Below are positions 8,509 through 17,276 of a stretch of 22,335 nt of DNA, one piece after another. The DNA comes from a virus: positions 1-22,335 of the IMG/VR virus record IMGVR_UViG_3300032898_000155; one strand, 5' to 3'. Within the stretch, counting starts at the first letter, position 1; every line of letters starts with the position of its first letter. A program made the translations under genes and the position numbers. The notes beneath the pieces were generated by a model, which searched no databases, was not told the DNA's origin, and worked only from the letters and a program-made list of their open reading frames with translations.

Positions 8509-8574
8509 CTAAAATAACAGATATAGTAGGCGACTATCCCATCTAACCAAGTAGTCATATCGTAACCATACCAT

Positions 8575-8610
8575 AAAAAGAAGGCGGCTCAGGAATATAT
8601 CCTGGCCGCC
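8575..8610 (-). terminator. Terminator downstream of the leftward tRNA-like gene
   Basis: GGCGGC (8583-8588) pairs with GCCGCC (8605-8610), with an inner AGGA/TCCT stem. On the minus strand the hairpin is followed by TTCTTTTT. It lies just past the 3' end of the tRNA-like gene at 8617. Confidence 0.78.
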
Positions 8611-8616
8611 TATCTC

Positions 8617-8691
8617 TGGGGTGTACAGAGGGATTCAAACCCTCGTCTCTAACGTTCTGGGTTATCGTGCTGATCACTGCACCATGCACAC
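8617..8691 (-). tRNA. tRNA with atypical anticodon loop (reads AGA, C33)
   Basis: All arms of a type I tRNA are present on the minus strand: acceptor 8691-8685 with 8627-8621 (7 bp, one G-U), D stem GTGC/GCAC (8682-8679/8670-8667), anticodon stem 8665-8661/8653-8649 with one A-G mismatch at its base, T arm GAGGG/CCCTC with loop TTTGAAT, and an encoded CCA (8619-8617). The loop reads CCAGAAC, which puts AGA (nominally Ser) at 34-36 but C instead of U at 33. The D arm resembles Gln/Glu tRNAs. It has its own promoter and terminator. Identity is unsure; it may be degenerate or have a non-translational role. Confidence 0.7.
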
Positions 8692-8704
8692 CATGATTAT
8701 TACT

Positions 8705-8730
8705 ATAGCATAAGAGAGAGCTCGAAAGCT
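8705..8730. other. UUCG-type hairpin upstream of the leftward tRNA
   Basis: Between the leftward promoter and the tRNA the DNA holds an 11-bp perfect inverted repeat (AAGAGAGAGCT and its complement) around a 4-base loop, TTCG on the minus strand and CGAA on the plus. No T run follows on either strand, so it is more likely a processing or stability element of the tRNA precursor than a terminator. Confidence 0.6.
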
Positions 8731-8762
8731 CTCTCTTCCCCAGAACGCTGTTAACACTTGTT

Positions 8763-8791
8763 AGTGTAGTCACCATTGTTAAATGTGTCAA
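8763..8791 (-). promoter_or_regulatory. Promoter of the leftward tRNA-like gene
   Basis: TTGACA (8791-8786, perfect -35), 17-bp spacer, TACACT (8768-8763, 4 of 6). It points to the tRNA-like gene, about 65 bases downstream, through the hairpin at 8705-8730. Its -35 box lies 9 bp from the palindrome at 8801-8814, back to back with the rightward promoter. Confidence 0.62.
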
Positions 8792-8800
8792 ATCAAAAAC

Positions 8801-8831
8801 GTACATTAATGTACTTATTGCATGGTATAAT
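8801..8831 (+). promoter_or_regulatory. Extended -10 promoter with perfect GTACATTAATGTAC operator
   Basis: TGG-TATAAT (8823-8831) is a consensus extended -10 box. The perfect 14-bp palindrome GTACATTAATGTAC (8801-8814) covers the -35 position, so a bound protein would block RNA polymerase. The expected start point is G8838, which is exactly where a structured RNA begins. The same palindrome, with two changes, is in the SSB-like promoter at 2661-2674. Confidence 0.7.
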
Positions 8832-8837
8832 ACTCCT

Positions 8838-8967
8838 GTCTACATTTTTCATAAGCACGCAGGAGCTTTTTTAATTCCTAACAACAAATGGGCAGCCATT
8901 GTACTAGTTAGGAATTTCTCCTGCTTGAAAGGTGTAGACAGCCGCAATGGCTGTCCATTTTTTTATT
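8838..8967 (+). ncRNA. Structured leader or small RNA with competing terminator and pseudoknot
   Basis: Three perfect nested helices: 8838-8844/8933-8939 (7 bp), 8859-8865/8918-8924 (7 bp) and 8873-8882/8907-8916 (10 bp). The apical loop segment 8891-8902 can pair with 8944-8955 (12 bp, two G-U) as a pseudoknot. The 8944-8955 segment is also the loop and 3' arm of a terminator, 8937-8943/8949-8955, followed by CATTTTTTT. The terminator further shares 8937-8939 with the outermost helix, so the two folds exclude each other. The G-U pairs would be mismatches on the other strand, supporting plus-strand RNA. It may control the membrane protein at 8984 or act as a free RNA of about 130 nt. No known class was recognised. 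Confidence 0.75.
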
Positions 8968-8983
8968 AAACAGGGGAAAATGC

Positions 8984-9256
8984 ATGTTCGTAGATCCAGA
9001 AGGTAGCTCTAATGTAGCCCTTAATACGGAGCCTACTCAATATAAGTATGTCGCTATAGTCATAGGGCTAGCGATCATACTAATTGGACTTGGATATTGG
9101 TTTGTGTATCGTCCATATATGATTCGTCGAAAGTGCGCCGCTGTCGCTACGAATGTTGCTGACTACGGACATTCTTCCGAAATTGTTTCTCAATGGTTTG
9201 GTGAGAGTTATCAAGGAGATTATCAACTCTGTCTCAACTCCAGAGGGCTAGAGTGA
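8984..9256 (+). CDS. Small single-span membrane protein behind a structured leader
   Basis: A 90-residue protein with a polar N-terminus, one membrane helix (about residues 22-42, YVAIVIGLAIILIGLGYWFV), a basic stop-transfer stretch (RPYMIRRK) and a soluble tail with two cysteines. AGGGG lies 8 nt before the ATG, downstream of the leader's terminator, so expression would need readthrough. An earlier ATG at 8980 gives only a 9-codon frame. No family recognised; it may be an exclusion or membrane-sensing protein, which is speculation. Confidence 0.68.
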   Translation: MFVDPEGSSNVALNTEPTQYKYVAIVIGLAIILIGLGYWFVYRPYMIRRKCAAVATNVADYGHSSEIVSQWFGESYQGDYQLCLNSRGLE

Positions 9257-9295
9257 TACTACCGCAAGCTTTCCGAATATGTTTCAGTGGTAGGT

Positions 9296-9385
9296 GGAGG
9301 AGTGGCTGAGTGGTTGAAAGCAACGACCTCTTAAGTCGTAGAACTGCGCAAGTTCCGTGGGTTCGAATCCCATCTCTCTCCGCCA
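9296..9385 (+). tRNA. Serine-type (type II) tRNA with lysine anticodon CUU
   Basis: The D arm (GCTGAGTGGTTGAAAGC), 5-bp long variable arm (9341-9345/9351-9355), T arm with TTCGAAT, G73 (9382) and encoded CCA (9383-9385) are those of bacterial tRNA-Ser. The anticodon stem ACGAC/GTCGT is perfect, and the loop CTCTTAA (9328-9334) reads CUU, the loop of tRNA-Lys(CUU). SerRS recognises the long arm and G73 rather than the anticodon, so this tRNA should be serylated. The acceptor GGAGGAG pairs with CTC-T-CTCC only with a bulged T9377. It could mis-insert Ser at AAG codons or act as a decoy for tRNA-Lys nucleases; it may also be decaying. Confidence 0.8.
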
Positions 9386-9395
9386 GTTAAATAAA

Positions 9396-9425
9396 GAATC
9401 CCCCATCACCATATGGGAGGGGGAT
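9396..9425. other. GC-rich hairpin after the tRNA
   Basis: AATCCCCC (9398-9405) is complementary to GGGGGATT (9419-9426), with a loop containing ATCACCATATGG. No clear T run follows on the plus strand; on the minus strand it is followed by CTTTATTT. The loop is similar to that of the terminator at 10632-10660 in the opposite orientation. The 3' arm overlaps the acceptor strand of the tRNA-like element at 9416. Confidence 0.55.
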
Positions 9426-9521
9426 TTAGTGGCCATCGGCCGTAGAACTGCGCAACTTTAGTGTAGCAGGATGATTTTGCCATGTCTACGTATCATAGGA
9501 GGCCAGCCCCCTCCTCCGCCA
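9416..9521 (+). pseudogene. Degenerate tRNA-like copy with intact acceptor and CCA
   Basis: GGAGGGG (9416-9422) pairs with CTCCTCC (9511-9517), one G-U, followed by G and CCA (9518-9521), the same end as the tRNA-Ser upstream. Inside, TAGTGGC is followed by CGTAGAACTGCGCAA (9440-9454), identical for 15 nt to the variable-arm region of that tRNA. The D and anticodon arms are missing and the T arm is replaced by about 55 unrelated bases. This looks like a partial duplicate of the tRNA with deletion and insertion. The kept acceptor may mean it is still processed. Confidence 0.55.
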
Positions 9522-9527
9522 GTATTA

Positions 9528-9560
9528 AAATAGAACCCCTTGGAACATGAGGTTCTATTT
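9528..9560 (+). terminator. Probable bidirectional terminator after the tRNA region
   Basis: AAATAGAACC (9528-9537) and GGTTCTATTT (9551-9560) form a perfect 10-bp stem with a 13-nt loop. A/T-rich ends on both sides make it symmetrical, but the T run is short (ATTT). It would end the rightward tRNA transcript and also serve the leftward transposase gene. Confidence 0.5.
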
Positions 9561-9588
9561 GCTCTTGCTAAGATTCAATTTAACTGTA

Positions 9589-10613
9589 TCAGGTTGTGAG
9601 AGTAGTTTCAAGACGCCCACGTATCACTGAACTGCTATACTACCTATATGGGAAAACGACTATTCAGAGAACTGATCAGGAAAGCCTCAAGGCCTTTTCC
9701 AGAAGAACAGGACCCACAGCTACACCCCGGTAGTTATAACGGAACACGAACTCGTCAATATAAGACTGCAAATACTTCGGTGAAACAGCGTGGTACGTCC
9801 CGTCCAAAGACCGCTTCAACTGGGACCAAAACCCCTCGATAGTATTGGTATGGGCTACTCCTCGTACATACTCCAGTTTCGAGTGATTCACGGTTGTGTG
9901 CGAATAGCCCTGCTTCGGTAGTGACTTATATGCTCTCCATTCGTCAGTATAGACATGGCTGTTCTTCAGCACGTCCATGCTTATCTCCTTGAGCAGTACA
10001 CGGGCACCTGAACTCTGTACGTGCTTGGCTTTCACCATCCCGCCACGCTCCACGGTGCCGAATACAATGCTCTTGTTATCGAACTTCTGTTTCATCTTAC
10101 GACGGCCACCGATATACGTTTCATCGCTCTCTACTTCACCACTAAGCTGGAATGAGCCTTGGCCCATCAACGAGCGCACCAACCGGCACATACGCCACGC
10201 AGTCTTGTAAGTGACACCCAACTCACGCTCGATAGTCTTGGCGGCCACGCCGTTTTTGTGTACGGAGAACTGGTATATGACGTAGAACCAATCATGCAAC
10301 GGCGTGCTGGACTTACGGAAAATCGTACCAGCCAGCGGAAAGAGTTGGTAGCTGCACCACTCGCAAGCATAGCACTGCCGTCCTTTTACCCTGTAGAACT
10401 TAGCCTTGACCACCCCGCAGCTCGGGCAGCATTTCATGCGTCCGAAACGGTCTTGAAACACGGCTTCCAAACAAGCGTCGTCGTTCGGGAACTCTGCTTC
10501 AAACTGTTTCTTGGGGTATCTCATACCGAACATTCTAGCAAATATATACTTGTTAGTCAAGGAATTACTTAAGAGGTTAGATGTGTCCGTTTTAGACATA
10601 ACTGGTAACCTGA
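9589..10613. mobile_element. IS1595-family-like element (about 1025 bp), boundaries tentative
   Basis: The transposase gene is flanked by imperfect inverted ends. TCAGGTT at 9589-9595 matches AACCTGA at 10607-10613, and further in, 9603-9622 matches the complement of about 10580-10599 at 12 of 20 positions, including an A-x-ACG core. The right repeat overlaps the transposase start codon. An 8-bp target duplication was not found at these edges, so the insertion may be old, the edges may be a few bases off, or the gene may be a domesticated transposase. Confidence 0.55.
9676..10599 (-). CDS. IS1595/ISXO2-like transposase
   Basis: A 307-residue protein. An N-terminal zinc ribbon has C58/C61 (CCPSC) and C79/C82 (CEWC), followed by the family signature QLFPLAGTIFRKSSTPL. 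A helix-turn-helix-like part (KTIERELGVTYKTAWRMCR) comes next. The DDE-type core shows D159 (EVESDETYIGG), D219 (VYTDEWRAY) and NTIEGFWSQLKR with E255. Length is normal for the family and the frame is intact. The ATG lies within the putative right terminal repeat and has no Shine-Dalgarno site. Confidence 0.92.
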   Translation of the reverse strand: MSKTDTSNLLSNSLTNKYIFARMFGMRYPKKQFEAEFPNDDACLEAVFQDRFGRMKCCPSCGVVKAKFYRVKGRQCYACEWCSYQLFPLAGTIFRKSSTPLHDWFYVIYQFSVHKNGVAAKTIERELGVTYKTAWRMCRLVRSLMGQGSFQLSGEVESDETYIGGRRKMKQKFDNKSIVFGTVERGGMVKAKHVQSSGARVLLKEISMDVLKNSHVYTDEWRAYKSLPKQGYSHTTVNHSKLEYVRGVAHTNTIEGFWSQLKRSLDGTYHAVSPKYLQSYIDEFVFRYNYRGVAVGPVLLEKALRLS

Positions 10614-10631
10614 ATTAGAATAATAAGGAAG

Positions 10632-10667
10632 ATAGGCCCCTTATGGTGATAGGGGCTTATTTCTTTT
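10632..10667 (+). terminator. Rho-independent terminator, rightward
   Basis: A 10-bp stem (10632-10641/10651-10660), loop of 9, followed by TTCTTTT. On the plus strand it is a good terminator, yet no rightward gene ends nearby: the transposase is on the other strand. It may be the original terminator of the rightward tRNA transcript, cut off by the insertion. Confidence 0.65.
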
Positions 10668-10672
10668 CCAGA

Positions 10673-10719
10673 CAAGTGAGCTACCCTAATGCTCTGGTGT
10701 AAGTACTAGGACTCACTTG
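10673..10719. other. 8-bp stem with 31-nt loop followed by CCA
   Basis: CAAGTGAG (10673-10680) pairs perfectly with CTCACTTG (10712-10719). On the plus strand CCA follows directly, giving an acceptor-like end, but only 31 nt lie between the arms, so it is not a tRNA. No promoter or T run is seen. Confidence 0.4.
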
Positions 10720-10734
10720 CCAAGGACTGCGGCT

Positions 10735-10826
10735 AATAAAAATGGCCGCACAGATTGTTAATCTATACGGCCGAAACATTCAGACCTGACTTCGTAGTAA
10801 GACGAGTTTACGTCATCAACTAAGCT
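10735..10826 (-). ncRNA. Candidate small RNA (about 92 nt), leftward
   Basis: A consensus-like extended -10, TGG-TATACT (10841-10833), predicts a start at A10826. The RNA has a small GACG/CGTC hairpin and ends in a strong terminator: 10772-10760 pairs with 10756-10744 over 13 bp, loop AAC, followed by ATTTTTATT. Two of the 13 pairs are G-U on the minus strand and would be A-C mismatches on the plus strand, so the RNA is read leftward. The region has no frame of note. No clear -35 box is seen. Confidence 0.55.
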
Positions 10827-10848
10827 GTTTTCAGTATACCAAAATGAG

Positions 10849-11034
10849 CTATTCAGCTGCTACTTGCTTCGTAGGGATAGTCGCCATATGCGCAAAGAGG
10901 CAAACAATGGTTATCAAATCCCATGGTCGCTGCCGGAAAGTTATGTATGCAGCTTCCAACAATTGGTTGGTAGTAATCAACCGCTGTACGAGCCTTCTAA
11001 GCCCCGCAAATTCAAAAGATGATACATCTACCAT
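10849..11034 (-). CDS. Possible small membrane-associated protein (weak)
   Basis: A 61-residue frame on the same strand as its neighbours, with a hydrophobic stretch (DLITIVCLFAHMATI). It lacks a Shine-Dalgarno site, and the terminator at 11043-11066 separates it from the genes upstream, so it would need its own promoter. A 66-residue plus-strand frame covers the same DNA and looks equally protein-like. At most one is real. Confidence 0.3.
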   Translation of the reverse strand: MVDVSSFEFAGLRRLVQRLITTNQLLEAAYITFRQRPWDLITIVCLFAHMATIPTKQVAAE

Positions 11035-11956: not shown

Positions 11957-12016
11957 ATGATCCTCGATTTCTCGCTGACCGACAATGAACGCATAAGCTG
12001 AATTGTTAATCCCTAG

Positions 12017-12105
12017 AGAGCCGCTACATTGACGTGTAACTGAGGCTACTATTATTGGTAGCGGCTCTAAGGTGCCAGTAAGGTAAAGGTGGAGTTTACC
12101 TTACT
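12017..12105. other. Two perfect hairpins between operons
   Basis: AGAGCCGCTAC (12017-12027) pairs with GTAGCGGCTCT (12058-12068), 11 bp with a 30-nt loop. AGTAAGGTAAA (12077-12087) pairs with TTTACCTTACT (12095-12105), 11 bp with loop GGTGGAG. All pairs are Watson-Crick, so the strand cannot be told. They sit where the leader of the leftward genes or an origin would be. No T run follows. Confidence 0.7.
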
Positions 12106-12319
12106 ATGGTATAGAGTATAACGTATAATGTATAGTATAGTCAAGTACTATTTATACATTATAATGTATAATGGTGTGTATAACTTATACTATACTCTAT
12201 ACATACTATCTATACCGTATAGTTATACTAGACTGTATAATGTACTGTATACCATATAACTGTCATGTATAAAGTCTAACGTATTGTATAATGTATACAT
12301 GATATATATAATGTAGAGT
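12106..12319. promoter_or_regulatory. TATA-rich divergent control region with six TATAATG copies
   Basis: About 210 bases made largely of TATA, GTATA and TATAC words. TATAATG occurs at 12124, 12160, 12167, 12236, 12287 and 12307; four of these continue as TATAATGTA with another two close variants. TTGTAT (12284-12289), 17 bp and TATAAT (12307-12312) form a promoter whose start falls at the ATG at 12320. The segment separates leftward and rightward genes. Its low melting energy, repeats and adjacent hairpins suit a replication origin as well as clustered promoters. Confidence 0.6.
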
Positions 12320-12919
12320 ATGCCACAAATAACTACATACATACGCAAAGACGACATGAGCCTATGGCTCGCATTACCAAACAAATCAGAAGCCATACAT
12401 ACCATGCTGCATAGCCTAAAAGGTCTTGAACCATCCATAACAGATGAAATCAACGCGCAGCAGTTCAATAAGGACGAAGAGTTGCATAATGAACATCTGG
12501 AAGTTCATAAGGCACTACACACAAAGATAGATACCCAAGACGAAATAGACCCTGAATTACCTCCAATACAAGAAAAAGCGGTAGATAGGTTTGAAACCGG
12601 AGAAATCAAAGGCAACAAAGCAATGAAGGACTTCCTGAAGAAGCCTACCATGACTACCGTAAAAGACGTCCATAAAGAACGGTTGGAACAGGTAACCGAG
12701 GTATTTGGTAAAGGTACCGAGGATGTTACCAAAGACGTGCTAGGAGATACGGCACCTGATCCCGATACCGTCGTGCAAAGCAGGAAAGGCGAAAAGAAGT
12801 GCTGCGAAGGTGAAGCCAAAGGCAAGTATTGCCAACACTGGCAATGGGATATGGAGAGAGGTGACAGATATACTAATCAATACTCTGGAAGAATCTCTTA
12901 CGTCCCATTCGCGGGATAG
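12320..12919 (+). CDS. Ribbon-helix-helix-like DNA-binding protein with Cys cluster
   Basis: A 199-residue protein. Residues 1-33 (MPQITTYIRKDDMSLWLALP and on) have the strand, KDD turn and two-helix layout of plasmid-type ribbon-helix-helix regulators. The middle (40-150) is charged and probably extended or coiled. Residues 158-178 contain C161, C162, C171 and H173 before WQWD, a likely zinc site. It is the first rightward gene after the TATA-rich region and has no Shine-Dalgarno site; the ATG lies 7 nt after TATAAT, so it is probably leaderless and may regulate its own region. A replication or mobilisation accessory role is possible. Confidence 0.68.
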   Translation: MPQITTYIRKDDMSLWLALPNKSEAIHTMLHSLKGLEPSITDEINAQQFNKDEELHNEHLEVHKALHTKIDTQDEIDPELPPIQEKAVDRFETGEIKGNKAMKDFLKKPTMTTVKDVHKERLEQVTEVFGKGTEDVTKDVLGDTAPDPDTVVQSRKGEKKCCEGEAKGKYCQHWQWDMERGDRYTNQYSGRISYVPFAG

Positions 12920-13115: not shown

Positions 13116-13676
13116 ATGCCCAAGAAGACACGCAAAGCAACATATAATAAACAGTTTACTGTACGGGAAGCTAAGTTTATCGAGGGCATCAAGCAAGGAT
13201 TAAGCCAAACCAAAGCCGCGCAGTACGCAGGCTATAACAAATCCTCAGCTCCCAAGTTCGGTATGTTACTGATGCGTAGGCCACATATACGTAAGGCACT
13301 GGGCATCATGTTGGATCAGGTCGGTGTTACATTCTCTAAGATCGCTCAAGTAGTCGTGGAGGGTTTAGAGGCAGAGAAAACGGTATATATCGGGCGTGGT
13401 GAGAATATGAAGCAAATAACCGTTACAGATCACGGTACGCGCTTGAAAGCTGCTGCTCTCGCTTTGAAACTATTGGATTACGAAGCCGAGCTCAAAGATA
13501 TATTCAGCACCGAAGGCAGAACTTTGCCTGAAACCAAGCCAGTTAAGAATAATAATGATGAACCACTTCCGATTAACATTAAGCGTAACAAGCTTGTCAA
13601 TGTTGATGAAGCCGAGCTCATAAAGATAGCATTTCCGGTAGAAGCTCAGGAGCTTGTCGGCGATCCAGTGCCTTAG
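13116..13676 (+). CDS. Terminase small subunit
   Basis: A 186-residue protein. The N-terminal part (FTVREAKFIEGIKQGLSQTK, then AAQYAGYN, then PHIRKAL) is the helix-turn-helix domain of phage small terminases that bind the packaging site. A later helical part (about 115-145, THGTRLKAAALALKLLDYE) probably mediates ring assembly, and the C-terminus is polar. The small subunit recognises viral DNA and controls the large subunit, encoded 2 kb further on. There is no ribosome site; TATACT is 6 nt before the ATG. Unusually, 870 bases without a clear gene separate it from the next gene. Confidence 0.82.
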   Translation: MPKKTRKATYNKQFTVREAKFIEGIKQGLSQTKAAQYAGYNKSSAPKFGMLLMRRPHIRKALGIMLDQVGVTFSKIAQVVVEGLEAEKTVYIGRGENMKQITVTDHGTRLKAAALALKLLDYEAELKDIFSTEGRTLPETKPVKNNNDEPLPINIKRNKLVNVDEAELIKIAFPVEAQELVGDPVP

Positions 13677-14171
13677 ATTCTCGAACAGGTTTTTGTTTTC
13701 CGTCCATCCAGTTTTGCACTTTTACGAATATACGTATTCTGACGCACGTACAGCCATTCTAAGACGTTTAAATCCAAAAGATGAGTATATATACGTCTCG
13801 TTTCAAAACGTAACGTCGTACAATAGACATTTTACGTCCTTATTATGACATGTCGTATCTGTTAATAACGTACGTTTGTCAAACCATATATACATACACT
13901 ACATATAGCGTTTGCAATGGCAAGCAAATCGCGCGACAGTGCGACCAACTTGCCCATGTCAATATTGTTATATTCCTTATTTGTGTTTACCTGTTTGAGT
14001 GTATAGCAACCGGTTTGCCACAGACTGTGTTATCTATATATTAATCAATGTAGCCCGCTATATTCCCCAGAAAAAAATTCTTCGTACCCGTAAACAAAAA
14101 AAGGGTATGTTCGTATTTTGTTCAGTATACTCTTATGTTTATCCTGAAAATACCGACCGAATTATTTTATG
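13677..14171. other. About 500 bases with no convincing gene; ACGT-rich
   Basis: Three short rightward frames exist (13654, 13850 and 13999 starts) but lack ribosome sites, promoters and family likeness, so I do not call them. ACGT occurs nine times between 13732 and 13875 (for example TACGTA, AACGTAACGT, AACGTACGT), many times the chance rate. It lies directly downstream of the small terminase gene, where a packaging or control site would be expected. Confidence 0.5.
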
Positions 14172-14344
14172 GCATGATCCCGCTCTCCTACTACTTATTT
14201 AGGCTAGGTTAGGACGGTTGTATGAACTACCCGTAGGACGTAGCAGGCATGGGACTATGTACTCTTCAGTCGTAGTCAGGTGTGGTTCCTTCTACACCAT
14301 GCTTGCTTTGTTACCCGAAAGGCAGAGTAAGAGCGGGATCATGC
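14172..14344 (+). ncRNA. Candidate structured RNA (about 173 nt) beside terminase genes
   Basis: A perfect 15-bp helix (14172-14186/14330-14344) closes the element. Inside, 14243-14250 pairs with 14299-14306 (8 bp, one G-U) and opens into a three-way junction with a 7-bp hairpin (14253-14259/14271-14277, one G-U) and a 5-bp hairpin (14279-14283/14294-14298). CCTAC (14187-14191) can pair with GTAGG (14233-14237), and CC-GAAA-GG forms a GNRA-type loop (14315-14322). Both G-U pairs would be mismatches on the other strand. No clear promoter was found. No known RNA class was recognised. Confidence 0.65.
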
Positions 14345-14446
14345 GTTTAGCCAGGTGATCCCTCGGCCTGTCTGCCTTCCCTCCATGGAGCTTTTTACTG
14401 GACTCCGGACCAGGTTCGGATAGTTATTTGTAGTAGACACAGAACC
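14345..14446. other. About 100 bases without recognisable content
   Basis: Between the two RNA candidates. It contains CTCCATGGAG (a 10-base palindrome at 14381-14390) followed by CTTTTTACT, a weak terminator-like arrangement for the plus-strand RNA upstream. No frame with a ribosome site is present. Confidence 0.35.
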
Positions 14447-14533
14447 AAAAAAGCCCAAGCGGAGCCTGGGACTAGTTTGGATGTACGACATTTCCATTGT
14501 GGCATAGTTTTCTGTGTATTTCAAGTCGTACAT
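14447..14533 (-). ncRNA. Candidate small RNA (about 85 nt), leftward
   Basis: On the minus strand a 9-bp perfect stem, 14533-14525 with 14489-14481, starts at the predicted 5' end, 4 nt after GATAAT (14543-14538). The RNA ends in a terminator: CCCAGG (14470-14465) with CTTGGG (14459-14454), then C and TTTTTT. One pair is G-U on this strand and would be A-C on the plus strand. No leftward gene exists here to need a terminator. It begins 20 bases before the HNH start, on the opposite strand. The -35 box is poor. Confidence 0.52.
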
Positions 14534-14552
14534 AGAAATTATCTTAACATGA

Positions 14553-14942
14553 ATGATCAGCAATGCTATAGTAAATCTTGGTTGTTCTATGAACGATTCT
14601 GAAATATATCTGTTCTGGCTAGGGTTTAAAGACTGGTTTATGACTCGTATGAGAAGGCGGTATTCGTATGCCCGGCTTCGTTTCGTTATTATGCATCCCG
14701 ATGGTATCTGCGCCATATGCGGAGGATATATACCCCGCAGGGAAAGGACGGTAGACCATATTATTCCTAAGTCGGTTTGTATCGAGATAGGACTTGCGGG
14801 TCTTATCTATGATCCCCGCAACTTCCAGTTGGCCCATAGTATCTGTAATAAGGTTCGTGCTACGGATATGAGTATGCTGCCTGCTTCTATTGTCAAGGAA
14901 ATACAGCGCAGAAAGAGTCTGTTACAGGATGTCCAGGCATAA
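14553..14942 (+). CDS. HNH endonuclease next to terminase genes
   Basis: A 129-residue protein with a complete HNH motif: C53/C56 (CAICGG), D68-H69 (TVDHIIPKS), N90 (PRNFQLAH) and H95/C98/N99 (HSICNKVR). Phages often carry such a nuclease beside the terminase, and in several systems it is required for packaging cleavage. The first 30 residues are less certain: no Shine-Dalgarno site is seen, and ATG codons at 14589, 14640 and 14649 are possible starts. Confidence 0.82.
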   Translation: MISNAIVNLGCSMNDSEIYLFWLGFKDWFMTRMRRRYSYARLRFVIMHPDGICAICGGYIPRRERTVDHIIPKSVCIEIGLAGLIYDPRNFQLAHSICNKVRATDMSMLPASIVKEIQRRKSLLQDVQA

Positions 14943-15520: not shown

Positions 15521-15750
15521 AATACCAGGATCCTCATTTTGATAAGCAGCGGTATTGGACGCTCCGGGATACCGCGCATAAGGTTCAGGGATATACCAAT
15601 CTTATGAAGCATTCCAGGGAGAAGATTCGTACTGTTTACGAAGATACTTCGTTCGAACACCAGTCTATAACCAAGAAAGCGCTCCTCAAAGACACTAAAG
15701 CCCGCAGGGCCTTGTTAGGTGATATAGTGGGGATATGGATCCCGTCTTAG
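15517..15750 (+). CDS. Small basic protein upstream of TerL
   Basis: A 77-residue basic, helical protein (HFDKQRYWTLRDTAHKVQGY, then SREKIRTVYEDT and KKALLKDTKARRALLGDIVG). Its ATG overlaps the previous stop and its last 16 bases overlap the TerL gene, so it is firmly within the packaging operon. No family recognised. Confidence 0.7.
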   Translation: MKYQDPHFDKQRYWTLRDTAHKVQGYTNLMKHSREKIRTVYEDTSFEHQSITKKALLKDTKARRALLGDIVGIWIPS

Positions 15751-17276
15751 AGAAGATCGCCCAGCGTTGCCGGTGGGATTTGTTTTTTCTCTGCAAGGAG
15801 ATATTGGATTACCAGCAGATGGAACCGCATGTCCACCAGGATATGTGTACGTATGCCGAAGCGTTATATGAGGCGCATCCTGACGGGTACATGTCGCCTC
15901 CGGAAAAGGATGGCAAGGAGCTTGAGGACCAGTTCCACGTCCAGAATAAGAACCTGCTGCTGCTGATGCCCCGGGGGACGTTCAAGACGTCCGTCATTAC
16001 CGTGGGGTTTTCTTTGCAGAATTTTCTTAATGATCCCAATATACGTATCCTTTTGGATTCGGAGACCATAACCAAGACTACGGGCTTCCTGCGGGAGATC
16101 AAGGGGCATTGCGAGGGGAATCCGAAGTACCGGGAAGTGTTCAAGACGATCCATGGGATGTATCCGAACGAGGGCAAGAAGAGTGAACTGCTATGGAAAG
16201 ACAATATGCTGAATCTTGCTTGCCGTACCAAGCGGCGCAAGGAACCGAGCATCATGTGTTCGGGAGTCGATAAGTCCATTAACGGGTTTCACTTCGATCT
16301 TATTATTTCCGATGACCTGCATAGCGAGAAGAATGTTACCAATGCCGATCAGATAGAACAGGTCAAAGAGCACTGGCGGCTGAGCTTCTCGCTCCTTGAC
16401 CCGGGCAAGCCGAGTATTGTTATCGGGACCAGGTGGGACTATGACGATCTGTATCAGCATATCCTGGACAATGAGCGGGACCACTTCAATATCCTTATAA
16501 GGAGGGCTGAGGAAAAGGACGGTACGCTGCTGTTTCCCGAAGTGCTGACCAAAGAGTTCCTGGAGAGCCAAAAGCGCCGGCAGGGGGCACGGATTTATGC
16601 TGCGCAGTATCTTAATGAACCGGTTGATGACGAGACGGCCACCTTCCGGCATAAGTACTTCAAGTACGTGGATATGAAGGCGATCCAGGATCGGCCTATA
16701 AACTGGTACTTGTCCATCGATCCCAGTTACGAGGGGGAATATTCGGATTGGGCGGCGCTTGTTGTGGCTGGGATGGATTACCAGCAGGAGTTATATGTGC
16801 GGCATATTACTCGGGCTAAGATGAAGTACTCGGAGATCATTACCGAAGTGTTCCGGTTATACAATCTCTTTATGCCTAAGATGGTTATCTTAGAGACGGT
16901 CGGGCAGCAGAAGAGTATTAAGTATGAACTGGATAACCAGATGCGGGCCCGGAGCGCGTGGCTGCCGATGAAAGAGCTGAGCGGTATTCGCAAGAACAAG
17001 GAGGAGCGGATCAGGGGATTGGCGCCGTATTATGAGTTCGGGCATGTCTGGCATGTGAAAGGGTGTCCGAACATAGATATGCTGGAATCCGAGCTGGTGC
17101 GTTTCCCCCGCTCCAAGTATGATGATGTCTGCGATAGCTTCGCCAATATCCTGGAATTCGCCCAGGCTCCCAGCCCGCTGACCAAGGTCAGCCAACGACG
17201 TGACCGCTATGCCGATGATCTCCCGCAGCAGCGCAGGAGTTTGTATAAGCCGACGAGTTCGATTACGGGATACTGA
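15735..17276 (+). CDS. Terminase large subunit (ATPase and nuclease)
   Basis: A 513-residue DNA-packaging motor. The ATPase part has Walker A PRGTFKT (79-85), Walker B DLIISDD (188-194) and coupling motif GTRW (231-234). The RNase H-like nuclease has D329 (LSIDPS), D338, E387 (VILETVG) and D463/D464/D467 (YDDVCD). Walker A has Phe where many have Gly, a variant common in one TerL branch. TerL translocates DNA into the prohead and cuts concatemers, docking on the portal encoded 700 bases later. The ATG overlaps the preceding gene; AGGTGAT lies 10 nt upstream. Confidence 0.95.
   Translation: MDPVLEKIAQRCRWDLFFLCKEILDYQQMEPHVHQDMCTYAEALYEAHPDGYMSPPEKDGKELEDQFHVQNKNLLLLMPRGTFKTSVITVGFSLQNFLNDPNIRILLDSETITKTTGFLREIKGHCEGNPKYREVFKTIHGMYPNEGKKSELLWKDNMLNLACRTKRRKEPSIMCSGVDKSINGFHFDLIISDDLHSEKNVTNADQIEQVKEHWRLSFSLLDPGKPSIVIGTRWDYDDLYQHILDNERDHFNILIRRAEEKDGTLLFPEVLTKEFLESQKRRQGARIYAAQYLNEPVDDETATFRHKYFKYVDMKAIQDRPINWYLSIDPSYEGEYSDWAALVVAGMDYQQELYVRHITRAKMKYSEIITEVFRLYNLFMPKMVILETVGQQKSIKYELDNQMRARSAWLPMKELSGIRKNKEERIRGLAPYYEFGHVWHVKGCPNIDMLESELVRFPRSKYDDVCDSFANILEFAQAPSPLTKVSQRRDRYADDLPQQRRSLYKPTSSITGY

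Follow-up and report, generated by a model that had tools for sequence, protein, structure and literature searches.

An apparently lineage-specific structured element between the terminase genes of a virus: a tentative leader RNA or a foldback insertion

The window analysed here makes up an entire virus record of 22,335 bases, from an uncultivated phage, and no longer host contig lies behind it. Its plus strand carries the gene of the small terminase subunit TerS (13116-13676; Terminase_2, E 9.6e-5, phrog_641), a small HNH endonuclease gene (14553-14942; PF01844, E 3.6e-6) and the gene of the large terminase subunit TerL (15735-17276; phrog_38, E 9.6e-80), whose product is 54–62% identical to that of the relatives. 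The 877 bases that separate TerS from HNH hold no convincing gene, and within them, between TerS and HNH/TerL, lies the non-coding element of 173 nt (14172-14344) that is the subject of this work; the HNH gene starts about 210 nt downstream of it. The HNH protein is 129 aa long, without a RuvC part. Its gene is missing at this place in the relatives, no homologue was found in the phage collection, and its profile gave only weak matches, elsewhere in the record, in 3 of 44 related records. Searches for homologues of HNH and of the slot ORFs opened no route to closer relatives, and the TerL profile had no match in bacterial and archaeal genomes.

Relatives were collected by TerL searches, which yielded two records, then 16 (thirteen of them at 52–62% identity) and finally 80, down to about 30% identity. 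Phages with a TerL about 58–62% identical have in common a non-coding region of about 450 nt after TerS, followed by small ORFs; in six of the closest relatives (G001, L012 and L016–L019) TerS is followed by this region with its common motifs. In the alignment of seven phages it occupies 13690-14131 of the window (plus strand), from TerS to the downstream slot and outside the element, and holds an operator-like GTCGTACAAT repeat, ACTACATATAGCGT, ACCAACTTGC, GTTTGAGTG, CCCAGAAAAAAATT and TATACT. Among the relatives it was located at L008 540-1106 (reverse), L012 1163-1640, L016 1210-1740, L017 475-920, L018 4198-4560 and L019 4819-5340, with an operator-like palindrome GTCGCACAATnnnnATTGTACGAC and the motifs ACTATATATAGCGT, ACCAACTTGC, TTGCCTAGTTGA and AAAAAAATT; across the seven phages the palindrome reads GTCGcACAAT...ATTGTaCGAC. 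Most relatives have a sigma-70-like promoter (TTGACA/TATAAT-type) right after the region, and their next small ORF begins within a few tens of bases of it. By sequence comparison, TATACT of the window (14126-14131, plus) stands at the position of the relatives’ −10; the promoter scan did not report it, and neither approach revealed a good −35 for it in the window. What follows in the slot varies from phage to phage, and the element begins 40 bases past the conserved region, where the cargo ORFs of the relatives start.

As an RNA, the conserved region showed no conserved fold and 0 compensatory pairs in the seven-phage alignment, and we therefore read it as a set of DNA signals, which may include a promoter/operator, a candidate late control region and perhaps a packaging site. 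Shared by seven phages, it is a more solid functional feature than the adjoining element. Between the element and HNH, an inverted repeat GTACGAC...GTCGTAC (14481-14533) is reminiscent of the operator-like motif in that region, and a leftward terminator-like hairpin (CCCAGGCTCCGCTTGGG CTTTTTT) lies at 14454-14470 on the minus strand.

The element is closed by a helix whose 5′ arm GCATGATCCCGCTCT (14172-14186) and 3′ arm AGAGCGGGATCATGC (14330-14344) form a perfect inverted repeat, 15/15 complementary, with a probability of being paired of 0.97–0.99. Inside it, the predicted structure includes a branched inner helix (14237-14312, plus; pairing probability 0.85) with a three-way junction, the arms of which are 14253-14277 (loop CUUC) and 14279-14298 (loop UUCCUU). 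Overall, four branches leave the closing loop, and the three-way junction is separate and apical. On the plus strand the minimum free energy (MFE) is −73.1 kcal/mol (z = −5.3), and none of 200 dinucleotide shuffles was as good; when the whole window was shuffled 400 times, one copy acquired an inverted repeat of 15 perfect pairs within 300 nt. The branched hairpin on its own reached z = −5.1 (0 of 300 shuffles as good). Since the interior without the closing arms is unexceptional as a whole (z = −0.8), both short hairpins at the 5′ side are doubtful: the first (14187-14213, loop UUUAGGC) appears in the MFE structure only, is missing from the centroid and is uncertain, while the second (14214-14234, loop UGAAC) belongs to the MFE structure and is partly kept by the centroid.

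In eight transcript contexts, of which the longest was 13900-14900, the closing helix kept a probability of 0.966–0.988 and the apical helix 0.85. A hairpin at 14319-14382, considered as a riboswitch-like competitor, was rejected, with a pairing probability near 0 against 0.985 for the closing helix. Thermodynamic modelling thus confirmed that the predicted fold of 14172-14344 is real, beyond chance, and the 15-bp closing helix, inner helix and three-way junction described in the original prediction were all recovered.

The strand is less firmly settled than that prediction had it, according to which G-U pairs fix the orientation. The helices of the element contain six G-U pairs and no A-C mismatch, and the plus strand, which is that of the flanking genes, is ahead by 10 kcal/mol; these pairs favour the plus strand rather than fix it, because the minus strand also folds well (−62.9 kcal/mol, z = −4.6). 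The element is non-coding: its small ORF at 14218 (46 aa) has a codon score of −0.08 against 0.26 for genes and was rejected. An unanchored scan of the window showed equally strong folding in several other intergenic stretches, e.g., around the tRNA-Ser at 8576 and at 12001-12200; structured spacers are therefore numerous in this phage.

The element, together with HNH, is absent at this place from all aligned relatives with a TerL about 58–62% identical. Its covariance model found no match in 80 related loci or 44 whole related records; the model was built from one sequence and run over 81 sources (the window and the 80 loci) and the 44 records, and it could therefore miss distant homologues with a changed sequence. 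DNA similarity to the element was not detected in the phage and plasmid collections. Gapped inverted-repeat patterns gave two chance matches, both inside coding sequence, in IMG/VR and the genomes, and no second copy with the same ends was present in IMG/VR or in 84,980 genomes. Searches of Rfam, both at the gathering score and at lax thresholds (E up to 10 on 14000-14560), returned nothing beyond chance-level resemblances to families of animal microRNAs and lncRNAs, all far short of the cut-offs. A resemblance of GGCAUGAUCCC to an HDV-like motif, judged by eye, was dismissed on topology, which does not fit. Since no carrier was found among the related loci and records searched, the element looks like an insertion specific to this lineage, as far as the collections show.

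We tentatively suggest that 14172-14344 is a lineage-specific structured insertion which may act in cis, as RNA, in the HNH–TerL leader. This is the likeliest of the functional readings, and a functionless foldback comes close behind it. The element opens a variable cargo slot that lies between TerL and the conserved, putative control region after TerS, and rightward transcription would presumably cross it ahead of HNH–TerL. The transcript would then fold into a closed, branched structure within the leader of the TerL-side transcript, and the folded structure might serve, in cis, as a stable 5′ leader or as a barrier to processing. As a result, the expression of HNH–TerL would be set relative to that of TerS. 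Transcription, strand and cis role are all presumed here.

The cis leader agrees with a strong fold that has exact ends and proved robust in every context tried, with the G-U pairs and the energy difference favouring the strand of the flanking genes and with the lack of a coding signal. In addition, the element takes the position of the post-promoter small ORF of the relatives, in a slot with variable contents. However, no homologue was found and hence no covariation, the clear −35 of the equivalent promoter was lost or never present in the window, the minus strand is nearly as significantly folded, and no strong rightward terminator ends a discrete RNA. Phage late operons have structured leader RNAs, such as the lambda 6S leader and put of HK022, which are similar in that a structured RNA starts the late transcript beside a control region; the window differs from them in having no recognised antiterminator gene, no strong downstream terminator and no known sequence likeness. 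A regulatory RNA, which the original prediction had also offered, is the best remaining functional option, and what speaks for it is position and fold, because no homologue was found to show covariation. If the element is a functional RNA, it is a new lineage-specific phage RNA beside the packaging genes.

It is also quite possible that the element is a non-autonomous MITE-like foldback insertion with 15-bp terminal inverted repeats, the RNA fold being a by-product with no role for the phage. The perfect repeat (15/15) exactly bounds the folded unit, its place is lineage-specific, and the G+C content shifts from 36% before the element to 50% inside. Foldback or MITE-type non-autonomous elements, ERIC/NEMIS-like in size, resemble it as short non-coding intergenic units which have perfect terminal inverted repeats and fold on both strands, whereas the element of the window is single copy and has neither a target duplication nor a matching autonomous element. 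Only 3–4-nt coincidences inside or near the palindrome were seen instead of a clear target-site duplication, and the ends are unlike the inverted repeats around the IS1595 transposase of the window. Moreover, six G-U pairs with no A-C mismatch lean to selection on RNA. The relatives without the element are too diverged to place an exact empty site. Since neither a target duplication nor a second copy was found, mobility of the element is plausible rather than demonstrated. If it is a foldback insertion, it illustrates that units of this type can be mistaken for structured RNA genes when a single genome is scanned.

The foldback explanation gains from an inverted-repeat scan of about 0.77 Mb of relatives, which revealed two other non-coding units with 15-bp ends (L051 1491-1724 and L076 611-830) and a third (L038 3156-3366) that possibly holds a small ORF. 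The L051 unit is 234 nt long, has three long hairpin arms and corresponds to a clean gap in its neighbour L044 (2087-2091), where the flanks match at 96% and 83%; therefore, precise gain or loss of such units occurs in this phage group. Like the element of the window, it is non-coding and unique, with 15-bp inverted-repeat ends and a multi-branched fold, and its single-copy status in IMG/VR speaks likewise against a mobile family. The two units share no sequence similarity and occupy different genomic places, and insertion is shown for L051 by the empty site in L044, while for the window it is only inferred. A possible 48-codon frame was read by eye on the minus strand of the L038 unit, so that this unit, 211 nt long and located some 3 kb upstream of TerL, may be a small gene with repeats on either side. 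An inverted-repeat unit in L036/L035 was rejected as an analogue, as it spans an apparent short minus-strand reading frame.

It is possible, though less likely, that the element is a discrete small RNA gene carried as cargo and acting in trans on host or phage targets. The element has a closed, end-to-end fold and the typical size of a small RNA, and a related phage has an apparent stand-alone RNA unit just before TerL (L060 5544-5700). However, the window scan found no promoter of the element’s own directly upstream and no T-run terminator directly after 14344, and the L060 unit has no homology to the element. In this unit, which lies upstream of TerL at a distance of less than 500 nt and has a z of about −6.7, a TTGACA-17-TATTAT promoter is followed by a hairpin and a terminator-like hairpin. 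In another phage (L063 3550-3780), a long and very stable hairpin, with a z of about −5.5, comes after a TTGACA box some 1 kb ahead of TerL.

A broader reading, which we regard as unlikely, is that this phage group repeatedly acquires unrelated structured RNAs closed by inverted repeats, and that the one in the window is a new functional RNA of the terminase operon, possibly regulating or assisting packaging. Its proposed members would be 14172-14344 of the window, the L051 unit and perhaps that of L038, with L060 as an analogous stand-alone RNA.

The original prediction also allowed for an intron remnant beside the HNH gene, and a remnant of a group I intron, a HEARO/OMEGA RNA or a retron msr-msd is very unlikely. 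The HNH gene does lie about 210 nt downstream, and the closing helix, hairpins and long branched hairpin superficially recall an a1-msr-msd-a2 arrangement. However, searches with the group I and HEARO models of Rfam, the check named in that prediction, gave no match, nor did group II, even at lax thresholds; no gene is interrupted by the element, and the HNH protein has no RuvC part. A reverse transcriptase was absent from the window and from five related records searched; the retron was rejected on the absence of PF00078 (RVT_1) from the record, which is incomplete, with controls positive in 4 of 14 genomes.

The weakest candidate, hardly credible on the present evidence, is a packaging RNA working like the phi29 pRNA, i.e., as a ring on the portal bound by the ATPase. 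In the phi29 family, pRNAs are recognised by a three-way junction, pairing of the right and left loops, a conserved G and a bulge related to CCA, and their genomes by an ATPase and a channel protein of the phi29 type (PMC12670572). The complementarity between the right- and left-hand loops of that family covers 3 nt or more and has a GG/CC core (PMC12670572). The likeness noted in the original prediction consists of a length of about 170 nt, the end-to-end closing helix, the three-way junction and the place among packaging genes; in addition, loops UUUAGGC (14198-14204) and UUCCUU (14286-14291) could form a 3-nt AGG/CCU contact, a match which we estimate to be about chance among 15 unpaired segments and whose first loop lies outside the centroid.

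The phi29 pRNA model (RF00044) matched neither at the gathering score nor at E up to 10 on 14000-14560, and the element has no clear right/left loop pair. Its layout is different, as the closing helix does not end in the three-way junction. No phi29-type ATPase and channel protein were found in this record, which is only a 22-kb fragment; unlike the phi29 motor with its gp16-type ATPase, the window has a conventional TerL (phrog_38) and a TerS, and relatives with a similar motor (TerL 58–62% and portal 64–75% identical) have no such RNA at this place. A pRNA-like role of the element is therefore unlikely, and whether it is a functional RNA or a foldback insertion, a fold from one genome is insufficient for a pRNA claim.

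Other parts of the window deserve mention. At 8529-10885, 26-nt inverted repeats (GGCGACTATCCC..., 85%) surround 2.36 kb of DNA that carries tRNA-Ser and tRNA-Lys as well as an IS1595-type transposase and a small ORF of membrane-protein-like character; this unit looks like a tRNA-carrying transposon in a phage, with no clear target duplication at its borders. On the minus strand of 8540-8780, the predicted fold pairs the interior of tRNA-Ser with 11 nt that lie upstream of this tRNA; with a strong hairpin in addition, z falls to −7.8, the minimum for the window. Upstream of an ORF at 8984, the plus strand of 8820-8965 combines a TATAAT-like box with a long folded leader and a terminator hairpin (8937-8955, with CATTTTTTTA after it), and is possibly an attenuated leader or a small RNA. 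At 11960-12320, the ORF at 12320 is preceded by a GC-rich hairpin and then by TATAATGTATA-like inverted units, which form an AT-rich array, and similar ACAATGTATA repeats occur upstream of the small ORFs of L012 and L019.
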